Source of the DNA: Snodgrassella alvi
GTDB lineage: Bacteria; Pseudomonadota; Gammaproteobacteria; Burkholderiales; Neisseriaceae
Direction of reading: 5' to 3'
Length of the DNA stretch: 44,597 bases
Assembly (NCBI RefSeq): GCF_002777825.1
Contig: NZ_MEIR01000069.1
Location: 1 to 44,597, forward strand
Below are positions 29,384 through 43,182 of the stretch, piece by piece (the stretch's first letter is position 1; each line of letters starts with the position of its first letter). Below the pieces are notes generated by a model. It worked only from the letters and a program-made list of their open reading frames with translations. It did not search any database and was not told the DNA's origin. The translations under genes and the position numbers were made by a program.

Positions 29384-29403
29384 AAATTGTAAATACCCCA
29401 AAC

Positions 29404-30243
29404 TTAGTACAAGATTCCAGTAGAAAATAATACTGCTTGTTTTAGGGTTTTATATTCAATCAGCGTCATATTATTTAATGCTTCATGAAGCCTTTCCGTG
29501 TTATCAATGGTTAGCCATTCTTCGGTTACCTTTCTTGCTTGTTCCAGATTATTAAATAGATATAAATCTAGTACCTCTGTGCGATAGGTGCGATTAAATC
29601 GTTCAATATATCCGTTTTGATATGGGCTACCTGGTTGAATATAATCTATGGTTATACCATGTGACTTCGCCCAGTCGATGAATGTTTTTCCGGTAAATCC
29701 CGGTTTATTATCCACTCGTATTTTGAGTGGATAGCCATGATATTCGGCCAGTTTATCCAGATAACGGGTAATCCTACCAGCCGGTAAACTAACCGCAATA
29801 TCAATGCCTAACGCCTCACGATTAAAGTCATCTATCACATTGAAGGTTCTAAAACGCCGTTGATTGCGACTGCTGTCACTCATAAAATCCATTGACCAGC
29901 ATTCACCTTGTTTACTGGGTACTGATAGCCTTTTTGGGCTTCGTGGAGGAATGCGTTGTTTACGCTTTACCTGAGATTAAGCTTTAATTCACAATACACC
30001 CGATACACACGTTTATGATTCCATTTATAGCCGAGCTTTCTGATGCGATTAAAACATTTAGGAAAGCCCCAGCGTAAATGCTTATCGGCTTAGTACTGAC
30101 ATAATCACTGAATCATCCGGTAACTTGGGTTGATAATAGTAAGCACAGCGGCTTAAGCCAACAATAGCGCAGCTCATGGCAATAGTAACAGAATGATTTT
30201 TTTGCAGTTGTACAGCCCAAGCTTTACGTGCTTGAGTAGGCAC
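29404..30243 (-). pseudogene. IS3-family transposase OrfB, broken
   Basis: Compared with the intact orfB at 42163-42987, this copy has lost 8 bp (TAATAGCA, near 30088) and, further on, 1 bp (near 29969). The net loss is 9 bp, so the frame is restored, but the roughly 120 bp between are out of frame and a TAA arises just upstream of the second site. The normal stop is also mutated, extending the tail by eight codons (ending GILY). The catalytic domain contains WSMDFMSD and RVDNKPGF, where the other copies have DNEPGF or DNEPVF. Confidence 0.9.
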
Positions 30244-30500
30244 TATAGCTTTTTTATGATTTCCTCCTGAAGCTGAGATTTTAAACTGAGCTCAGCAAAC
30301 ATCTGCTTAAGCTTACGGTTTTCAGCCTCTAACTCCTTTAAACGTTTGATATCGGACGTTTCCATACCACCGTATTTATCACGCCATTTATAAAAAGTTG
30401 AATTGCCGATGCCATATTTACGGCAGAGTTCTTTGACGGGGATACCGGCTTCGGCTTCTTTTAAAATAGCTACGATCTGATGTTCAGTCATTTTTTTCAT
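30243..30500 (-). CDS. IS3-family transposase OrfA
   Basis: An 85-aa protein with a helix-turn-helix (TEHQIVAILKEAEAGIPVKELCRKYGIGNSTFYKWRDKYGG) and a C-terminal leucine-zipper-like coil (LKELEAENRKLKQMFAEL). This is the standard OrfA layout: it binds the terminal repeats and fuses to OrfB by -1 frameshifting at A6G. It is intact here, while copy 2 keeps only its 3' end. Confidence 0.92.
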   Translation of the reverse strand: MKKMTEHQIVAILKEAEAGIPVKELCRKYGIGNSTFYKWRDKYGGMETSDIKRLKELEAENRKLKQMFAELSLKSQLQEEIIKKL

Positions 30501-30576
30501 GCTTAAATCCTCAATGGGTTAATAAAGAGAATTTTCTACTTTTATGCTGTACTATTTTAGGGGATAGTTACAAAAT

Positions 30577-35801: not shown

Positions 35802-36401
35802 ATGACTCTCTACAAAATCAAACCTGCTTTCCAAAAACTTTTACGTCCACTTATGTTCTGGCTATACAGAACGGGCATTACCGCCAACCACGTAACCCTT
35901 GGCGCTATAGGCCTTTCAGTCATTATTGGTGTCATACTGGCCATTTTCCCCTATCCCGGGCTATTCTGGCTGCTACCTATTACCTTGTTTATTCGCATGG
36001 CACTCAATGCGCTGGATGGTATGCTGGCACGCGAATGCAACCAGCAAAGCCGGCTTGGTGCGGTTTTAAATGAGCTGGGCGACGTATTATCTGATATCGC
36101 CCTGTATTTACCCTTTATCCTATTACCGGGCAGCAATACTACAGTAGTACTGATTATGCTGTTTTGTGCTGTGCTCACCGAATTTTGTGGCATTCTCGCC
36201 CAAACAATTAACCGGATTCGCAGCTATGCAGGCCCAATGGGTAAAAGTGACCGCGCCCTGATTTTTGGCACATGGTCATTACTGCTGGCCATATGGCCCG
36301 AGTTAACCTCATGGAATAATCTACTGTGGTGTGTATCCATCATCTTACTGCTATGGACTTGCGTTAACCGCTGCCGTAGTGCCTTAACCGGAGGCCACTA
36401 A
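35802..36401 (+). CDS. ynbA: CDP-alcohol phosphatidyltransferase, YnbA-type
   Basis: A 199-aa inner membrane enzyme with about six helices that joins a CDP-activated lipid to an alcohol. The family motif D-x2-D-G-x2-A-R-x8-G-x3-D-x3-D appears as N69-A-L-D72-G73-M-L-A76-R77 ... G86-A-V-L-N90-E-L-G-D94, with an extra D98. The first and third Asp positions are therefore Asn, which may change metal binding or substrate. The sequence closely resembles E. coli YnbA as I recall it, which shares this pattern. The acceptor alcohol is unknown. It heads a tight operon, with ynbB starting 1 bp after its stop. The ATG has no clear Shine-Dalgarno sequence. Confidence 0.9.
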   Translation: MTLYKIKPAFQKLLRPLMFWLYRTGITANHVTLGAIGLSVIIGVILAIFPYPGLFWLLPITLFIRMALNALDGMLARECNQQSRLGAVLNELGDVLSDIALYLPFILLPGSNTTVVLIMLFCAVLTEFCGILAQTINRIRSYAGPMGKSDRALIFGTWSLLLAIWPELTSWNNLLWCVSIILLLWTCVNRCRSALTGGH

Positions 36402-36402
36402 T

Positions 36403-37317
36403 ATGCTGCTGCAAAAGTCCTTACTAGTTATCTTCTGCCTGTTATTGCTGGCAACAGTTATTAATGGGCTGCTGGTATGTCTAAAACCGAACAAAGACTG
36501 GCACGAACTAACATTACGCATTCGCACTTGGTGGATTATTATCATCCTGTTTTCTCTGGCACTGATTAGCCCGCATTGGCTCGGATTAAGTTTTTTTGCG
36601 CTGGTCAGCTTCATGGCCTTAAAAGAATATTTAACACTGGTACCTGCCCGCCATGCCGACCGGATGCCCATTTTATGGATGTTTATCACCATTCCGATTA
36701 ATTACTGGTTAATCGGAATCGACTGGTATGGGCTGTTTATCGTATTTATTCCCGTATATATGTTCCTGTTCTTACCAGCACGCATGGTGATTGCCGGAGA
36801 TACCAGACACTTTCTGCGCACTGTCTCTCAGCTACAATGGGGATTGATGACCACTGTATTTACTTTTAGCCATGTTGCTTTTCTCTTGGTACTACCCAAC
36901 GATAATCAACAAACTGGTGCACTGCTGGTACTGTTTCTGGTAGGTTTAACCGAATTCAACGATATTACCCAATATCTATGGGGCAAATCTCTGGGCAGAA
37001 TCAAAATCACCCCTAAAGTCAGTCCGAATAAAACACTAGCCGGCTTACTTGGTGGAATTGGCAGCACCACCATTGCCGCCATGCTATTAGGCCCGCTACT
37101 CACTTCACTGAACTGGGGTATGGCCTTACTGGCCGGCCTGATTATCAGCATAAGCGGTTTCTGTGGCGATATCGTCATGTCTGCAATCAAACGGGATATC
37201 GGTATTAAAGACAGCGGTACACTGTTACCCGGACATGGAGGCATCCTCGACCGTCTGGATTCACTGATTTTTACCGCCCCCGTATTTTTTCACTTTATTC
37301 GTTATTTCTATTACTAA
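36403..37317 (+). CDS. ynbB: CdsA-like phosphatidate cytidylyltransferase, YnbB-type
   Basis: A 304-aa polytopic inner membrane protein carrying the complete CdsA signature near its C-terminus (SAIKRDIGIKDSG, then PGHGGILDRLDS). It should make CDP-diacylglycerol (or a related CDP-lipid) from CTP and phosphatidic acid. E. coli YnbB is a CdsA paralogue that, as I recall, has been tied to biosynthesis of the glycolipid MPIase used in membrane protein insertion. It is probably not the housekeeping CdsA, which is usually located with dxr/uppS. It begins 1 bp after ynbA and ends 3 bp before the acyltransferase gene. Confidence 0.92.
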   Translation: MLLQKSLLVIFCLLLLATVINGLLVCLKPNKDWHELTLRIRTWWIIIILFSLALISPHWLGLSFFALVSFMALKEYLTLVPARHADRMPILWMFITIPINYWLIGIDWYGLFIVFIPVYMFLFLPARMVIAGDTRHFLRTVSQLQWGLMTTVFTFSHVAFLLVLPNDNQQTGALLVLFLVGLTEFNDITQYLWGKSLGRIKITPKVSPNKTLAGLLGGIGSTTIAAMLLGPLLTSLNWGMALLAGLIISISGFCGDIVMSAIKRDIGIKDSGTLLPGHGGILDRLDSLIFTAPVFFHFIRYFYY

Positions 37318-37320
37318 ACC

Positions 37321-37965
37321 ATGCTGAAATCATTACTCAAACCAATATTTGCCTTATGCATAGTATGGCCGGTTATGCGTTTATGGATGGGTTTACGTAT
37401 TCACCAACACCACAACTTGCCCAAACAGGGTCCAGCCATCATTGTTGCCAACCACAATAGTCACATGGACGTTTTTGCGTTGATGTCACTCTATTCACCC
37501 TTACAACAACGCCACATTCATCCTGCGGCAGCAGCTGATTACTTTCTCAGTAATAAATGGATGGCCTGGTTTGCACTCAACGTCCTGAATATTATTCCAG
37601 TGACCCGGCAGAATAGTGGTCAGGGCAATCCTCTGCAAGGCTGCGAAGAAGCCTTGCGCAAAAATAAAATTCTTATTCTTTTTCCAGAAGGTTCACGTGG
37701 TGAACCCGGGAAAATGCAGCCATTAAAATCAGGCTTATGGTATCTAAGTGCCGCCATGCCCGATGTACCGATTATTCCAGTGTGGTTACAAGGCACTGAA
37801 CAGATTATGGCCAAAGGCAATCGCATCCCCTTACCCTTGTTTATCGATGTCAACATTGGCCGTCCCATGTACTACCACCCCGACAAAGAACAATTCAAGG
37901 CTAAATTATTAAACAATTTACTAGCATTGCGTCCGCAATATACAAAAAGAGACTCCAATGACTGA
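37321..37965 (+). CDS. PlsC-type 1-acyl-glycerol-3-phosphate acyltransferase
   Basis: A 214-aa membrane-associated acyltransferase of the PlsC/LPLAT family. The catalytic H-x4-D motif is VANHNSHMDVFALM (about residue 40), and the substrate-binding motif is FPEGSRGEPGKMQPLKSG (about residue 120). Expected reaction: acylation of a lysophosphatidic-acid-like acceptor to give phosphatidic acid, the substrate for the CdsA-like neighbour. E. coli ynbABCD lacks such a gene, so its insertion here extends the pathway. Its last 8 bp overlap the next gene, which favours coupled translation. Confidence 0.92.
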   Translation: MLKSLLKPIFALCIVWPVMRLWMGLRIHQHHNLPKQGPAIIVANHNSHMDVFALMSLYSPLQQRHIHPAAAADYFLSNKWMAWFALNVLNIIPVTRQNSGQGNPLQGCEEALRKNKILILFPEGSRGEPGKMQPLKSGLWYLSAAMPDVPIIPVWLQGTEQIMAKGNRIPLPLFIDVNIGRPMYYHPDKEQFKAKLLNNLLALRPQYTKRDSND

Positions 37966-39718
37966 ACAACGCCAAGCAAAAGAAAGTATTTTTCATACCA
38001 GTGATAAACAAGAATTATTTTACCGCCACTGGCCTGCCATCACCACCGGCACAATACGCAAAGTTATTGTCCTGTTTCACCGCGGGCATGAACATTCTGG
38101 CCGCTTACAACACATTGTTGATGAGCTGAACATGCCAGATACAGATTTTTATGCATGGGATGCCCGCGGCCATGGCCGCTCACCTGGCCTTCGTGGCTAC
38201 AGTCCGTCACTAGCACGCTCAGTACAGGACGTAGATGAATTTGTGCAATTTGTTGCCGCCGATAGCCAGACACCTCTTGCCAATATTATCGTTATTGCTC
38301 AGAGTGTGGGTGCGGTATTGGCTGCAACTTGGGCGCACGATTACGCACCACAAATTCGCGGTCTGGTACTTGCTTCTCCGGCTTTCAAAGTAAAACTATA
38401 TGTCCCATTTGCCCGTCCCCTGTTAGCAATTAGTCAACATTTCAAAGGTCTGTTTTTCGTTAATTCATACGTCAAAGGCAAGTACCTAACTCATGATACA
38501 CAACGCATTAACAGTTTTAATAGCGACCCACTGATTACCCGCGCCATTGCAGTCAATATCCTGCTGGATTTGTACCGCACAGCTGATCGCATTATTGAAG
38601 ATGCCGCAGCCATTACGTTACCTACCCAATTGCTGATCTCCGGTCAGGATTACGTTGTGCATCGACAGCCACAACTGGATTTCTATCAGCGTATTCGCAA
38701 TCCGCTGAAAGAAATGCACATTCTTCCTGGTTTTTATCACGACACATTGGGTGAACTTAACCGCGAAGAAGCATTTGCAAAAATTCATAGCTTTGTCGAT
38801 ACCCTGTACCAGCAACCAGTTCACACCTTTAACTACCAACATGAAGATCGCTGGAGCCCAAGTGCAGATAACTGGCGCCAACTGAGCGGCGGCCCTGTGC
38901 CATTTTCACCCAGTGCCTTTGCTTATCGTGCCTTACATAAAGGCATAACTACTCTTGGTACACTCTCCAATGGCATTAAGCTGGGTTGTGAAACTGGCTT
39001 TGATTCTGGCAGCACATTGGATTATGTCTACCAAAACCAACCACAAGGTAAAAACTGGCTGGGAAAACAGTTTGATAAAGCCTATTTGAATAGTATTGGC
39101 TGGCGAGGTATCCGGCAGCGCAAAATCAATCTGGAATACATGATTAAACAGGCGGTATCTAAATTACAAGCACAAAAAATGCCTATTCGCGTAGTTGACA
39201 TTGCTGCTGGCCATGGCCGATACGTGATTGAAGCATTATCCAGTATTGATACCGTTGAACAAATCCTGTTACGCGATTACAGCCAAATCAATGTCAACAA
39301 AGGACAGCAGATGATAGCTGCCTACGGTTTGATCGCTAAAGCACGATTTGAAATCGGCGATGCATTCAATCAGCAACAATTAGCTTCACTCTCGCCCAAG
39401 CCTACACTGTGCATCGTTTCCGGCCTGTACGAACTTTTTCCAGACAATAGCCTATTACGCACCTCACTGAACGGTTTAGCCGCTGCTATTCCTGTTGGCG
39501 GTATCTTGATATATACCAACCAGCCATGGCATCCACAACTGAAAACCATTGCATGGTCACTCACCAGCCATCGTGAAGGTCAACCATGGATTATGCGCAA
39601 TCGCACTCAGGGTGAAATGGATGCATTAGTAAACGCTGCCGGCTTCGATAAATGCACACAAATTATCGATGAATGGGGCATATTTAGCGTTTCTATAGCA
39701 ATACGCCGTGCATCATGA
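37958..39718 (+). CDS. ynbC: Fused alpha/beta hydrolase and SAM-dependent methyltransferase, YnbC-type
   Basis: A 586-aa two-domain protein. The N-terminal half (about 15-285) is a monoglyceride-lipase-like alpha/beta hydrolase. It has LFHRGHEHSGR near the oxyanion strand, AWDARGHGRSPG, a nucleophile elbow AQSVGA (Ser with Ala in place of the usual first Gly), the acid in SGQDYVV and the His in GFYHDTLGE. The C-terminal half (about 400-586) is a class I methyltransferase with SAM motif VVDIAAGHGRY. No signal peptide is seen, so it likely works at the cytoplasmic membrane face. Overlaps plsC by 8 bp and ynbD by 4 bp (ATGA). Hydrolysis and methylation of the same lipid is inferred from the fusion. 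Confidence 0.92.
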   Translation: MTEQRQAKESIFHTSDKQELFYRHWPAITTGTIRKVIVLFHRGHEHSGRLQHIVDELNMPDTDFYAWDARGHGRSPGLRGYSPSLARSVQDVDEFVQFVAADSQTPLANIIVIAQSVGAVLAATWAHDYAPQIRGLVLASPAFKVKLYVPFARPLLAISQHFKGLFFVNSYVKGKYLTHDTQRINSFNSDPLITRAIAVNILLDLYRTADRIIEDAAAITLPTQLLISGQDYVVHRQPQLDFYQRIRNPLKEMHILPGFYHDTLGELNREEAFAKIHSFVDTLYQQPVHTFNYQHEDRWSPSADNWRQLSGGPVPFSPSAFAYRALHKGITTLGTLSNGIKLGCETGFDSGSTLDYVYQNQPQGKNWLGKQFDKAYLNSIGWRGIRQRKINLEYMIKQAVSKLQAQKMPIRVVDIAAGHGRYVIEALSSIDTVEQILLRDYSQINVNKGQQMIAAYGLIAKARFEIGDAFNQQQLASLSPKPTLCIVSGLYELFPDNSLLRTSLNGLAAAIPVGGILIYTNQPWHPQLKTIAWSLTSHREGQPWIMRNRTQGEMDALVNAAGFDKCTQIIDEWGIFSVSIAIRRAS

Positions 39719-41019
39719 ATCTACGCAGTAAAATAAATTTGCAGGCAGTAGGTTGGTTATGTCTTCTTGGCCCCTATTTCTTCCTGACCTATAGCCAAGT
39801 AAACCAGTTTACTGCCACACGTATTAATATAGGTAGCATTGTTTTTAACTGGGAACAATATATTCCTTTTATACCCCTAACCATTATTCCTTACTGGAGC
39901 CTAGATTTTCTCTACGGTATATCATTATTTATTTGCCGCTCCTTATCCGAACAGAAGCGTCTGGCTTGCCGGCTATTGTTAGCATCTACCTTTGCCTGCA
40001 TTGGCTTTTTGTTGTTCCCACTCCGTTTTAGCTTTACCCGGCCGAAAGTAGAAGGTTTTGCGGGATGGTGGTTTAATCAACTGGAACAATTTGACTTACC
40101 TTATAACCAGTCACCATCACTACATATCATCCTGAGCTGGCTATTGTGGCAACATTTTCTGCGACATACTGCCAAACGCTATCATTGGCTGATCCATGGC
40201 TGGTTTCTGCTAATTGCCATGTCCGTACTGACTACATGGCAACACCACTTTATTGATGTCATTACTGGTATAGCTATCGGCATGTTTATCGACTGGTTGA
40301 TACCAACCAATAAATTATTACATTCACATACAAAATCTTCACAATCAATAAAGCTGGCAAGATACTATGGTTTGGCAGCTTTATTGTGTGCATGTCTTAG
40401 TCTGTGGTTAACATTTTGGTTATTATGGCTTACACTTGCTTTATTTATCGTAAGTTTTACCTATCGTTTTGGTGTTGGTTTGGTATATAAATCACAGCAG
40501 GGTAAATATACCGCCGCAGCCTATTGCTTACTCCTCCCATGGCGTTATTTAATGACCATTTCCCGCTGGTTATACACGCGTAAAATTCCTGCGGTCAGTC
40601 CAATCAGAAGACATATCTTTTTGGGTAGTTACCCTTGCAGCACAGTAGAGCAGCGAGCCGTGCTTGATTTAACTTTCGAATTTTCGCGCTCATATTCAAC
40701 TCGTAATCGTGTCTACAGCTCTATACCCATGCTTGATTTGGTTTGCCCCCCCATGCCTCAATTACAGCAAGCAGTAATTGAGCTGGAAAAGTTACGCCTA
40801 CAAAACAGCAGTGTACTAGTACATTGTGCATTGGGGTTGTCGCGCAGTGCAATTGTGGTTATTGCATGGCTACTGGCTTTTGACAATTTCAAAACCGTAG
40901 AGCAGGCATATTCCTTTGTGCAACAACAACGCCCGCAAATTGTGCTTGGCACCCAACATATGGAGTTACTTCGACAATGGCAAACCAGAATAGCTCAGAA
41001 CCCACTGATCCTTACTTAA
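39715..41019 (+). CDS. ynbD: Fused PAP2 membrane phosphatase and dual-specificity phosphatase, YnbD-type
   Basis: A 434-aa protein with about seven hydrophobic helices forming a PAP2 lipid phosphatase: FTRPK (107-111), PSLH (134-137) and QHHFID (176-181) correspond to the KxxxxxxRP, PSGH and SRxxxxxHxxxD motifs, with departures from each. A C-terminal cysteine phosphatase follows (HCALGLSRS, residues 370-378, nucleophile Cys371). Each domain could remove phosphate from a lipid phosphate; the DSP part recalls PTPMT1-like phosphatidylglycerophosphate phosphatases. E. coli YnbD has the same layout. Its start overlaps ynbC by ATGA. Confidence 0.9.
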   Translation: MNLRSKINLQAVGWLCLLGPYFFLTYSQVNQFTATRINIGSIVFNWEQYIPFIPLTIIPYWSLDFLYGISLFICRSLSEQKRLACRLLLASTFACIGFLLFPLRFSFTRPKVEGFAGWWFNQLEQFDLPYNQSPSLHIILSWLLWQHFLRHTAKRYHWLIHGWFLLIAMSVLTTWQHHFIDVITGIAIGMFIDWLIPTNKLLHSHTKSSQSIKLARYYGLAALLCACLSLWLTFWLLWLTLALFIVSFTYRFGVGLVYKSQQGKYTAAAYCLLLPWRYLMTISRWLYTRKIPAVSPIRRHIFLGSYPCSTVEQRAVLDLTFEFSRSYSTRNRVYSSIPMLDLVCPPMPQLQQAVIELEKLRLQNSSVLVHCALGLSRSAIVVIAWLLAFDNFKTVEQAYSFVQQQRPQIVLGTQHMELLRQWQTRIAQNPLILT

Positions 41020-41384
41020 ACAGACAGTTAATCAGACAAACATTAGCCAGCTGGCGCTTTTTGCTGCTGATGGCTTTAGTACCATTATTATGGGTAATCT
41101 TCAGCGCGCCTGTTGGTTTTATACGGGTACTGATTGCAGGAAATGCCGGCTTTGTTATCTATCAGTGCTGGCGCCTGTGGCTGGACGACCATTATTTCTC
41201 TGAACTCACACCTAAAAATAATCAGCAGGCGGGTATTGCTCTTGTTTTCATCTGGCAAAAAGAAAAATTGCAATACTTTTCCTTACAACAAAGATATGAG
41301 GGTGCAATAAAGCAACTCAAATACGCCTTGGCCAGCTGCGCCATATTATGGCTAATCTGGCTAATTGCTTTACTTTTCAAATAA
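40977..41384 (+). CDS. Small membrane protein closing the ynb-like operon
   Basis: A 135-aa protein with a polar N-terminus, two adjacent helices (about 28-62, RFLLLMALVPLLWVIFSAPVGF and IRVLIAGNAGFVIYQCW), a cytoplasmic-looking charged loop and a final helix (about 114-134). I do not recognise a family. It overlaps the 3' end of ynbD by 43 bp in another frame, a strong sign of coupled expression and of a shared job. Absent, as far as I recall, from E. coli ynbABCD. It could be a partner subunit of YnbD or YnbA. Confidence 0.78.
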   Translation: MANQNSSEPTDPYLNRQLIRQTLASWRFLLLMALVPLLWVIFSAPVGFIRVLIAGNAGFVIYQCWRLWLDDHYFSELTPKNNQQAGIALVFIWQKEKLQYFSLQQRYEGAIKQLKYALASCAILWLIWLIALLFK

Positions 41385-42122: not shown

Positions 42123-43050
42123 TGTAAATACCCCAAACTTAGTACAAGATTTAAGTAGAAAATTATGCTGCTTGTTTTAGGGTTTTATATTCACTCGGCG
42201 TCATATTATTTAATGCTTCATGAGGTCTTTCCGTGTTATAAATGGTTAGCCATTCTTCGGTTACCTTTCTTGCTTGTTCCAGATTATTAAATAGATATAA
42301 ATCTAGTACCTCTGTGTGATAGGTGCGATTAAATCGTTCAATATATCCGTTTTGATATGGACTGCCTGGTTGAATATAATCTATGGTTATACCATGTGAC
42401 TTCGCCCAGTCGATGAATGTTTTTCCGGTAAATCCCGGTTCATTATCCACTCGTATTTTGAGTGGATAGCCATGATATTCGGCCAGTTTATCCAGATAAC
42501 GGGTAACCCAACCAGCCAGAAAACTAACTGCAATATCAATGCCTAACGCCTCACGATTAAAGTCATCTATCACATTGAAGGTTCTAAAACGCCGTTGATT
42601 GCGACTGCTGTCACTCATAAAATCCATTGACCAGCATTCACCTTGTTTACTGGGTACTGATAGCCTTTCTGGATTTCGTGGAGGAATGCGCTGTTTACGC
42701 TTTACCCTGAGATTAAGCTTTAATTCACAATATACCCGATACACGCGTTTATGATTCCATTTATAGCCGAGCTTTCTGATACGATTAAAACATTTAGGAA
42801 AGCCCCAGCGTAAATGCTTATCGGTAATAGCACTTAGTACCGACATAATCACTGAATCATCCGGTAACTTGGGTTGATAATAGTAAGCACAGCGGCTTAA
42901 GCCAACAATAGCGCAGCTCATGGCAATAGTAACAGAATGACTTTCTTGCAGTTGTACAGCCCAAGCTTTACGTGCTTGAGTAGGCACTATAGCTTTTTTA
43001 TGATTTCCTTCTAAAGCTGGGATTGTAAGCTTAGCTTAGCCAACATCTGC
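42123..43050 (-). mobile_element. IS3-family element, 5'-truncated (copy 2)
   Basis: Starts with TGTAAATACCCC at 42123 and is alignable to copy 1 through orfB, the A6G slip site and the last codons of orfA. Similarity stops at AACATCTGC (43050). Most of orfA and the other terminal repeat are gone. The remaining orfA bases have diverged more than orfB. Confidence 0.9.
42163..42987 (-). CDS. IS3-family transposase OrfB, intact frame
   Basis: 274 aa from GTG 42987, the usual OrfB entry point after the frameshift site. An N-terminal HTH_21-like region ([28 protein letters not shown]) precedes the RNase H-like integrase core with the DDE residues: Asp in WSMDFMSD, Asp in RVDNEPGF, and Glu in NGYIERFNRTY. 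It ends TLKQAA. Because orfA is truncated, no OrfAB fusion can be made from this copy; it could act only with OrfA from elsewhere (copy 1 has an intact orfA). Confidence 0.92.
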   Translation of the reverse strand: MPTQARKAWAVQLQESHSVTIAMSCAIVGLSRCAYYYQPKLPDDSVIMSVLSAITDKHLRWGFPKCFNRIRKLGYKWNHKRVYRVYCELKLNLRVKRKQRIPPRNPERLSVPSKQGECWSMDFMSDSSRNQRRFRTFNVIDDFNREALGIDIAVSFLAGWVTRYLDKLAEYHGYPLKIRVDNEPGFTGKTFIDWAKSHGITIDYIQPGSPYQNGYIERFNRTYHTEVLDLYLFNNLEQARKVTEEWLTIYNTERPHEALNNMTPSEYKTLKQAA

Positions 43051-43182
43051 ATAAAAATATAGTCATTGCCAATAATAGTATCAGTAAGTACGTAATAGAA
43101 ACCTTTAATATAAAGATTTCTATTGCGGTATGGATGTTGATTTAAATTAAATAACAATACGTATTAATGCATGTTAATTGCC

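Follow-up and report, generated by a model that had tools for sequence, protein, structure and literature searches.

What does a tightly packed row of six lipid-related genes do in a bee-gut symbiont, and is it an extended form of the Escherichia coli operon ynbABCD? We addressed this question in Snodgrassella alvi (assembly GCF_002777825.1, contig NZ_MEIR01000069.1), whose genome comprises 2.58 Mb in 90 contigs and is 97.8% complete. The window, i.e., the whole stretch of DNA analyzed, is 44,597 nucleotides long, and the operon occupies positions 35802-41384 of its forward strand. This operon is real, widespread, and of the type of arc1, the antagonism resistance cluster 1 of Pseudomonas aeruginosa. 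It is not a novel extension of ynbABCD. We put at about 0.6 the probability that this arc1/ynb-type operon makes a minor specialized phospholipid beside the housekeeping pathway, helping the envelope to survive phospholipase-type toxins. The list of open reading frames (ORFs) of the window gives six genes:

35802-36401, + strand: gene A (ynbA or arc1A type), 199 aa, a CDP-alcohol phosphotransferase with a predicted fold like that of phosphatidylinositol phosphate (PIP) synthases and with Asn at D1 (N69) and D3 (N90)
36403-37317, + strand: gene B (ynbB or arc1F type), 304 aa, a CdsA paralogue with a complete cytidylyltransferase signature
37321-37965, + strand: PlsC-type acyltransferase, 214 aa, with HX4D and FPEGSR motifs
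37958-39718, + strand: gene C (ynbC type), 586 aa, a monoacylglycerol-lipase-like hydrolase fused to Methyltransf_20
39715-41019, + strand: gene D (ynbD type), 434 aa, a PAP2-type membrane domain fused to a dual-specificity phosphatase (DSP)
40977-41384, + strand: gene S, 135 aa, predicted all-helical, without known family

A six-gene operon shared by many genera

The initial annotation had described six tightly packed genes, and both their coordinates and their domain labels agree with our analysis. Along A-B-PlsC-C-D-S, gaps of 1 and 3 bp are followed by overlaps of 8, 4, and 43 bp. Pfam identified CDP-OH_P_transf in A (3.1e-10), CTP_transf_1 in B (4e-70), Acyltransferase in PlsC (3.1e-24), Hydrolase_4 (5.3e-68) and Methyltransf_20 (2.9e-138) in the single chain of C, and PAP2_3 (3.7e-06) and DSPc (2.7e-22) in the single chain of D. 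No Pfam family passed the cut-off for S, whose top match (T4SS_pilin, E 0.0058) lies below it, and no family was convincing among 44 members of the S group. A scan for promoters and terminators gave 12 and 5 sites, i.e., fewer than the means of 17.0 and 6.3 in shuffled sequences, and is therefore uninformative. The catalytic motifs of B, PlsC, C, and D are kept wherever the alignments have letters, with rare exceptions. The window B has the C-terminal signature S..KRD...KD.G......HGG..DR.D, near-invariant in 68 sequences, and the hydrolase half of C matches monoacylglycerol lipases (1.3e-20). Residues R66, D70, and R106 of S are invariant among 44 aligned sequences. The protein is presumably membrane-bound, and its best Foldseek matches are to the diacylglycerol kinase DgkA (E 0.36), a likeness of the predicted model that is only a hint.

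We searched one genome per species for relatives of C. Of 553 candidate stretches the best 80 were retained, a set skewed to close relatives and partly non-independent, in which genes were counted as profile matches within 6.5 kb of C and not as intact genes. Of these 80 loci, 64 have the complete set of six, and they are spread over 22 named genera. Given this count, the clustering exceeds chance, and the plsC and 135-aa genes do travel with ynbABCD. Together with the conserved catalytic motifs, this linkage bears out the earlier proposal of a dedicated lipid operon. The order A-C-D-S-PlsC-B is found in 43 loci of Pseudomonas, Cupriavidus, Variovorax, and others (32 are from Pseudomonas or Phytopseudomonas), and the order A-B-PlsC-C-D-S in 21 loci of Enterobacterales and of betaproteobacteria such as Chromobacterium. 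The latter is the order of the window, which stands outside the 80 loci. Of the remaining 16, four lie close to the end of a contig (L067, L093, L098, L103), eight are enterobacterial and show A-C-D-S alone, and the others are L055, L061, L062, and L071. The profile of gene A was polluted by over-extended ORFs (there is a false A in L098), and its motif was therefore checked directly: it is present in 78 loci (the exceptions are L061 and L103), including 64/64 of the six-gene loci.

Some genomes arrange these genes differently. We searched seven genomes from Providencia, Xenorhabdus, and Morganella; in all seven a YnbB-type gene lies away from the C locus, and in six of them it adjoins a PlsC gene. 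At L055 and L062, YnbB is part of the C locus, and the genome of L058 (Enterobacter) gave a CdsA-like match only. In Shinella, A is divergent from C-D-small-PlsC-B, the small gene matching the S profile weakly (27 bits). Burkholderia has the five enzymes and a small ORF at the position of S, to which the S profile gave no match. The Citrobacter TSA-1 plasmid carries the six genes in identical order. No relatives of C were found in the viral contigs or phage records searched.

Other plasmids harbor partial or distant versions. An E. coli fecal plasmid (L021:4839-8979) has matches to A, B, PlsC, and C and a short one to D, a mobile copy apart from the chromosomal ynbABCD. On a Pseudanabaena plasmid (L028:2658-5813), A-B-PlsC lies beside nif genes, together with a methyltransferase gene that has no hydrolase half. 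In Moraxella osloensis (plasmid L026:5820-11737), a C-type methyltransferase stands by patatin-like phospholipase, SDR oxidoreductase, CdsA-type, and PAP2 genes, possibly a variant pathway. A Kosakonia cowanii plasmid (L027:901-6626) bears a distant relative of C that forms a row with genes for an acyl carrier, a ketosynthase, a dehydratase, and FabG.

The gene content of the window is that of the Pseudomonas loci. In P. aeruginosa, PA2541-PA2536 were named arc1A-F, six genes under Gac/Rsm control, five of them lipid-related and four resembling enzymes of phosphatidylglycerol (PG) synthesis, in an eLife study of 2022 (PMC8926400). The same study reports that arc1 deletion strains survive attack by the type VI secretion system (T6SS) of B. 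thailandensis poorly, and that arc clusters are more widespread than Gac/Rsm. In a study of 2025 (PMC12663445), a tssM1 arc1A mutant showed raised sensitivity to V. cholerae, to a lesser degree when active TseL was lacking, and also to A. baylyi carrying only Tle1; a strain without arc1A, arc3A, and aas was reported to be no more sensitive to Tae1 or Tse2. The term "ynb" is absent from the main text of both papers, neither of which came up in literature searches on ynb, and the link between ynbABCD and arc1 seems to be new within the literature searched. No P. aeruginosa copy was among the 80 kept loci or in the plasmid search; the tie to the PA numbers comes from published annotation and gene order.

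An altered transferase and its partners

The signature of class I CDP-alcohol phosphotransferases is DxxDGxxAR...GxxxDxxxD, whose eight residues have been called absolutely conserved (PMC4634129). D1-D3 are described as binding metal and D4 as the likely base (PMC4634129, PMC6506517). Gene A departs from this signature, though it keeps the fold. It has Asn at D1 and D3 in 96/96 sequences, a set that includes the window and is not fully independent. Both Gly, D2, D4, and the Ala of the AR pair are kept in all 96, the Arg in 95. The host genome has two other CDP-alcohol transferases, and these show the canonical DDDD motif.

The predicted model of A (pLDDT 91.4) aligns with the mycobacterial PIP synthase PgsA1 (6h59) at a TM-score of 0.78 and 22% identity, and its nearest solved relatives are PIP synthases. 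The phosphate-binding arginines of these enzymes, R155 and R195 in PgsA1 numbering, align with R151 and R190 of A, which are invariant in 39 sequences. The inositol-contact residues of PgsA1 (R94, S132, K135) do not align with like residues in A. Searches for inositol-1-phosphate synthase gave no match, either in the host genome (PF07994, 0/1) or in the other carriers searched (PF01658, 0/23). Because the arginine pair is kept, the inositol contacts are unmatched, and this synthase was not found, the acceptor of A is probably a phosphorylated compound other than inositol phosphate.

A second, distant transferase (A') was found in Morganella beside PlsC and YnbB-type genes. It reads N-D-N-D, without the Arg of the AR pair, and its likeness to the A profile is distant (32-80 bits). 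Among 398 genomes sampled from the phylum, 21 have a relative of A', and all 21 are NDND. In the short loci around them, the YnbB-type match is strong in 18 (353-513 bits), a 77-bit fragment in L198, and missing in two; one of these two genomes (G344) has the pair in a wider stretch (L210), and in the other (G481) the genes are far apart. Clusters of PlsC, YnbB, and A' lie at L173:7776-10094 in Morganella and at L199:4410-6639, L200:4021-6636, and L201:4428-6633 on alphaproteobacterial plasmids, those of Nitratireductor, Rhizobium, and Paracoccus. The L199 cluster sits between glycerol-3-phosphate uptake and inositol catabolism genes, and the L200 cluster has one extra small gene.

YnbB-type genes are present in 66 of the 398 genomes, in 67 places, and their neighbors were counted in 66 of these loci and in the window, 67 in all. 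PlsC lies at most 1.5 kb from YnbB in 66 of the 67, and an NDND transferase at most 6 kb away in 50, with L226 undecided. Eight loci of one bacterial family (f73, L255-L262) have the PlsC-YnbB pair without an A-type transferase within 6 kb. A wider reading, which we offer tentatively and with the odds somewhat against it, is that PlsC, a YnbB-type enzyme, and an NDND transferase of either lineage form an undescribed, Proteobacteria-wide lipid module whose head group falls outside known pathways. The six-gene operon would then add the lipase-methyltransferase, the phosphatase, and S, turning the module into an inducible shield against injected phospholipases.

Loss, transfer, and erosion

We built a tree of 98 C proteins by a quick search, with support from the SH-like approximate likelihood ratio test (SH-aLRT) only. 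The YnbC proteins of Escherichia, from E. coli (L024) and E. whittamii (L055), share a group of ten rows (SH-aLRT 95) with copies from Serratia and Citrobacter. Most members of this group are six-gene loci, as are the next rows outward. Because YnbC groups inside mostly six-gene relatives, these data are most simply explained by a loss of plsC and S in Escherichia, ynbABCD being reduced from the six-gene set. The plsC and last genes had been described in the initial annotation as additions to ynbABCD. This description has to be abandoned, since the six genes co-occur across loci and plasmids and the Escherichia YnbC is nested among six-gene relatives.

In the same tree, a group of 14 rows (SH-aLRT 99) unites the C proteins of the window and of two congeners with those of Serratia, Citrobacter, Mixta, and Escherichia, apart from six of the seven other Neisseriaceae copies. 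The seventh (G036, loci L034/L067) falls, like the window and Enterobacterales, within a larger group of 33 rows. The approximately unbiased (AU) test rejected a constraint placing the three Snodgrassella proteins with the six other family copies (p-AU 6e-94, the G036 copy being left out), and did not reject one that separated 20 enterobacterial copies from those of the window's genus (p-AU 0.096). This makes horizontal transfer between the Snodgrassella and Enterobacterales groups likely. The donor was probably in the Enterobacterales, although the step and its direction are not proven.

Within Snodgrassella, all six genes are kept in 3 of 14 genomes. Another five (G002, G008, G009, G011, G013) have A, B, and PlsC open, a proposed core trio, the PlsC start of G011 being undecided. 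D and S are missing from these five, as is C, in whole or for the most part. Fragments of the operon are left in G001, G004, and G005, and the first 38 bp of A in G003. G007 (60% complete) and G012 gave no match to C and no close match to the neighboring metQ-like gene, A, B, and PlsC not being searched for in these two. Two like repeats occur in the window, at 29387-30548 and 42123-43054, which we take, by our own reading and not by a scan, to be an IS3-type insertion sequence (IS). Copies resembling them lie 0-250 bp from break points in G003, G004, G009, and G011. Because such copies lie at the break points in four congeners, the erosion was probably IS-driven. In the trio-only pair G008/G013, dN/dS is 0.02 for A, 0.03 for B, and 0.07 for PlsC; the changes are few and the method is crude, but such values are what a trio functioning on its own should show. 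Between the window and G010 or G006 it ranges from 0.03 to 0.25 over the six genes and is highest in D and S.

The Tle1-like lipase family PF09994 is present in 6 of the 14 genomes, including all three with the full operon, a weak association (Fisher p 0.055, uncorrected for kinship). The T6SS sheath protein VipB occurs in 12 of the 14 genomes and is uninformative for a link with the operon. Three Tle1-like lipase domains lie in the host genome (contigs C41, C44, C74), and the host itself may therefore deliver phospholipase effectors.

Possible product and comparison with known systems

How could these enzymes work together? PlsC would complete a phosphatidic-acid-like lipid, B would activate it with CTP, and A would couple the CDP-activated lipid to a soluble phosphorylated alcohol, after which the DSP half of D would take off the extra phosphate. 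C, as a monoacyl-lipid hydrolase-methyltransferase, and S might tailor the product or clear lysolipids. The result would be a minor specialized phospholipid, made beside the housekeeping pathway, which would help the envelope to withstand phospholipase-type toxins from rival bacteria. We infer the identity of PA2541-36 with the set of the window, the order of the reactions, the type of acceptor, and the tailoring by C, D, and S, and extend the protective role to the host by analogy with arc1 of P. aeruginosa.

Several observations weigh against this proposal. The lipid product is identified neither here nor in the sections of the cited papers that we consulted. Transferase A is without two metal-ligand aspartates, so its CDP-alcohol chemistry may be non-standard, and the phosphatase half of D is nearer to protein DSPs (8.2e-10) than to the lipid phosphatase PTPMT1 (1.5e-4). 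In 16 of the 67 YnbB loci, neither an A-type transferase nor, by pattern, a canonical one turned up within 6 kb. Erosion of the operon is under way in Snodgrassella, and the match to PA2541-36 comes from published annotation and gene order. In the arc1 work, no single B. thailandensis effector tested was reported to explain the Arc1 defect, and one Arc1 gene only passed the cut-off for defense against Tle3 (PMC8926400); arc1A is described as auxiliary to arc3A (PMC12663445). The CsrA/RsmA family was not found in the host genome (0/1, 97.8% complete; GacS/GacA were not searched for) by a search that did detect it in controls (3 of 14 genomes, one of them E. coli). Since it was not found, the Gac/Rsm control circuit of Pseudomonas probably does not apply in the host.

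The same enzymes could also serve salvage. C would hydrolyze lysolipids or monoacylglycerol left by lipases, PlsC would re-acylate lyso-phosphatidic acid, and B, A, and D would lead back to ordinary PG. The monoacylglycerol-lipase-like character of C fits such a role, as do the four arc1 products resembling PG-synthesis enzymes and the reported contribution of arc1A to lipase-effector resistance (PMC12663445). However, P. aeruginosa is reported to have its core phospholipid enzymes elsewhere (PMC8926400), the host has its two canonical transferases, the altered site of A is fixed, and the trio occurs without C. Moreover, YnbB could not replace CdsA in E. coli (PMC6362211, given there as data not shown), which points to a non-housekeeping lipid. 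We thus consider salvage unlikely. The initial annotation had linked YnbB to the glycolipid MPIase, but this link is weak. YnbB overproduction raised MPIase in E. coli, yet deletion of ynbB did not change MPIase significantly, and the effect is described in that study as marginal or auxiliary (PMC6362211). For this reason MPIase was set aside as the product; that the operon feeds its synthesis is very improbable and would leave A, PlsC, C, D, and S unexplained.

We give as little credence to a route to phosphatidylinositol in which A would form its phosphorylated precursor, phosphatidylinositol phosphate, and D would remove the phosphate, scavenged inositol being a possible source. The solved relatives of A are in its favor, as is a partial NCBIfam match of A, the best one, to archaetidylinositol phosphate synthase (69.3 bits, below the 180-bit cut-off). 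The unmatched contact residues speak against it, and phosphatidylinositol was set aside because inositol-1-phosphate synthase was not found in host or carriers. Finally, the operon might be a relic in the host, acquired horizontally and eroding, with little present function. The few complete copies in the genus, the remnants in G001, G003, G004, and G005, and the repeats at break points would agree with this. But all six genes of the window are open with conserved motifs, their dN/dS against G010 and G006 is 0.03-0.25, and the surviving A-B-PlsC sets are under purifying selection, which makes a relic quite improbable.

A specialized phospholipid with a protective role is thus the explanation we retain, and the trio with the altered transferase is the part most worth testing. 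The locus joins an E. coli operon without firm function, a Pseudomonas defense cluster without known mechanism, and a lipid operon of a bee-gut symbiont. If the link between ynbABCD and arc1 is true, the mechanism of arc1 becomes open to study in E. coli K-12. The fixed metal-site change in A poses a concrete biochemical question and provides a signature with which to search for the lipid, and the trio-only genomes point to the three genes to take up first.

Compared with known systems, the operon is close to E. coli ynbABCD: the order of A, B, C, and D relative to one another agrees at the two loci, and YnbC is around 69% identical to the window C, whereas the E. coli locus (L024) is without plsC and S. 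With arc1 it shares the number of six genes; the annotations of PA2536 as phosphatidate cytidylyltransferase (PMC8190622), PA2537 as acyltransferase (PMC2246019), and PA2540 as putative phospholipase (PMC5541441) fit B, PlsC, and C, and the PA numbering fits the A-C-D-S-PlsC-B order of other Pseudomonas loci. It differs from arc1 by its order, A-B-PlsC-C-D-S, and by the CsrA/RsmA regulator, not found in the window's genome. PgsA1 resembles A in its predicted fold and its phosphate-binding arginine pair, but not at D1, D3, and the inositol contacts. The clusters of PlsC, YnbB, and A' differ from the operon in that A' is only distantly like A and that C, D, and S are not alongside in the four loci, but they too bring together PlsC, a YnbB-type enzyme, and an NDND-type transferase.

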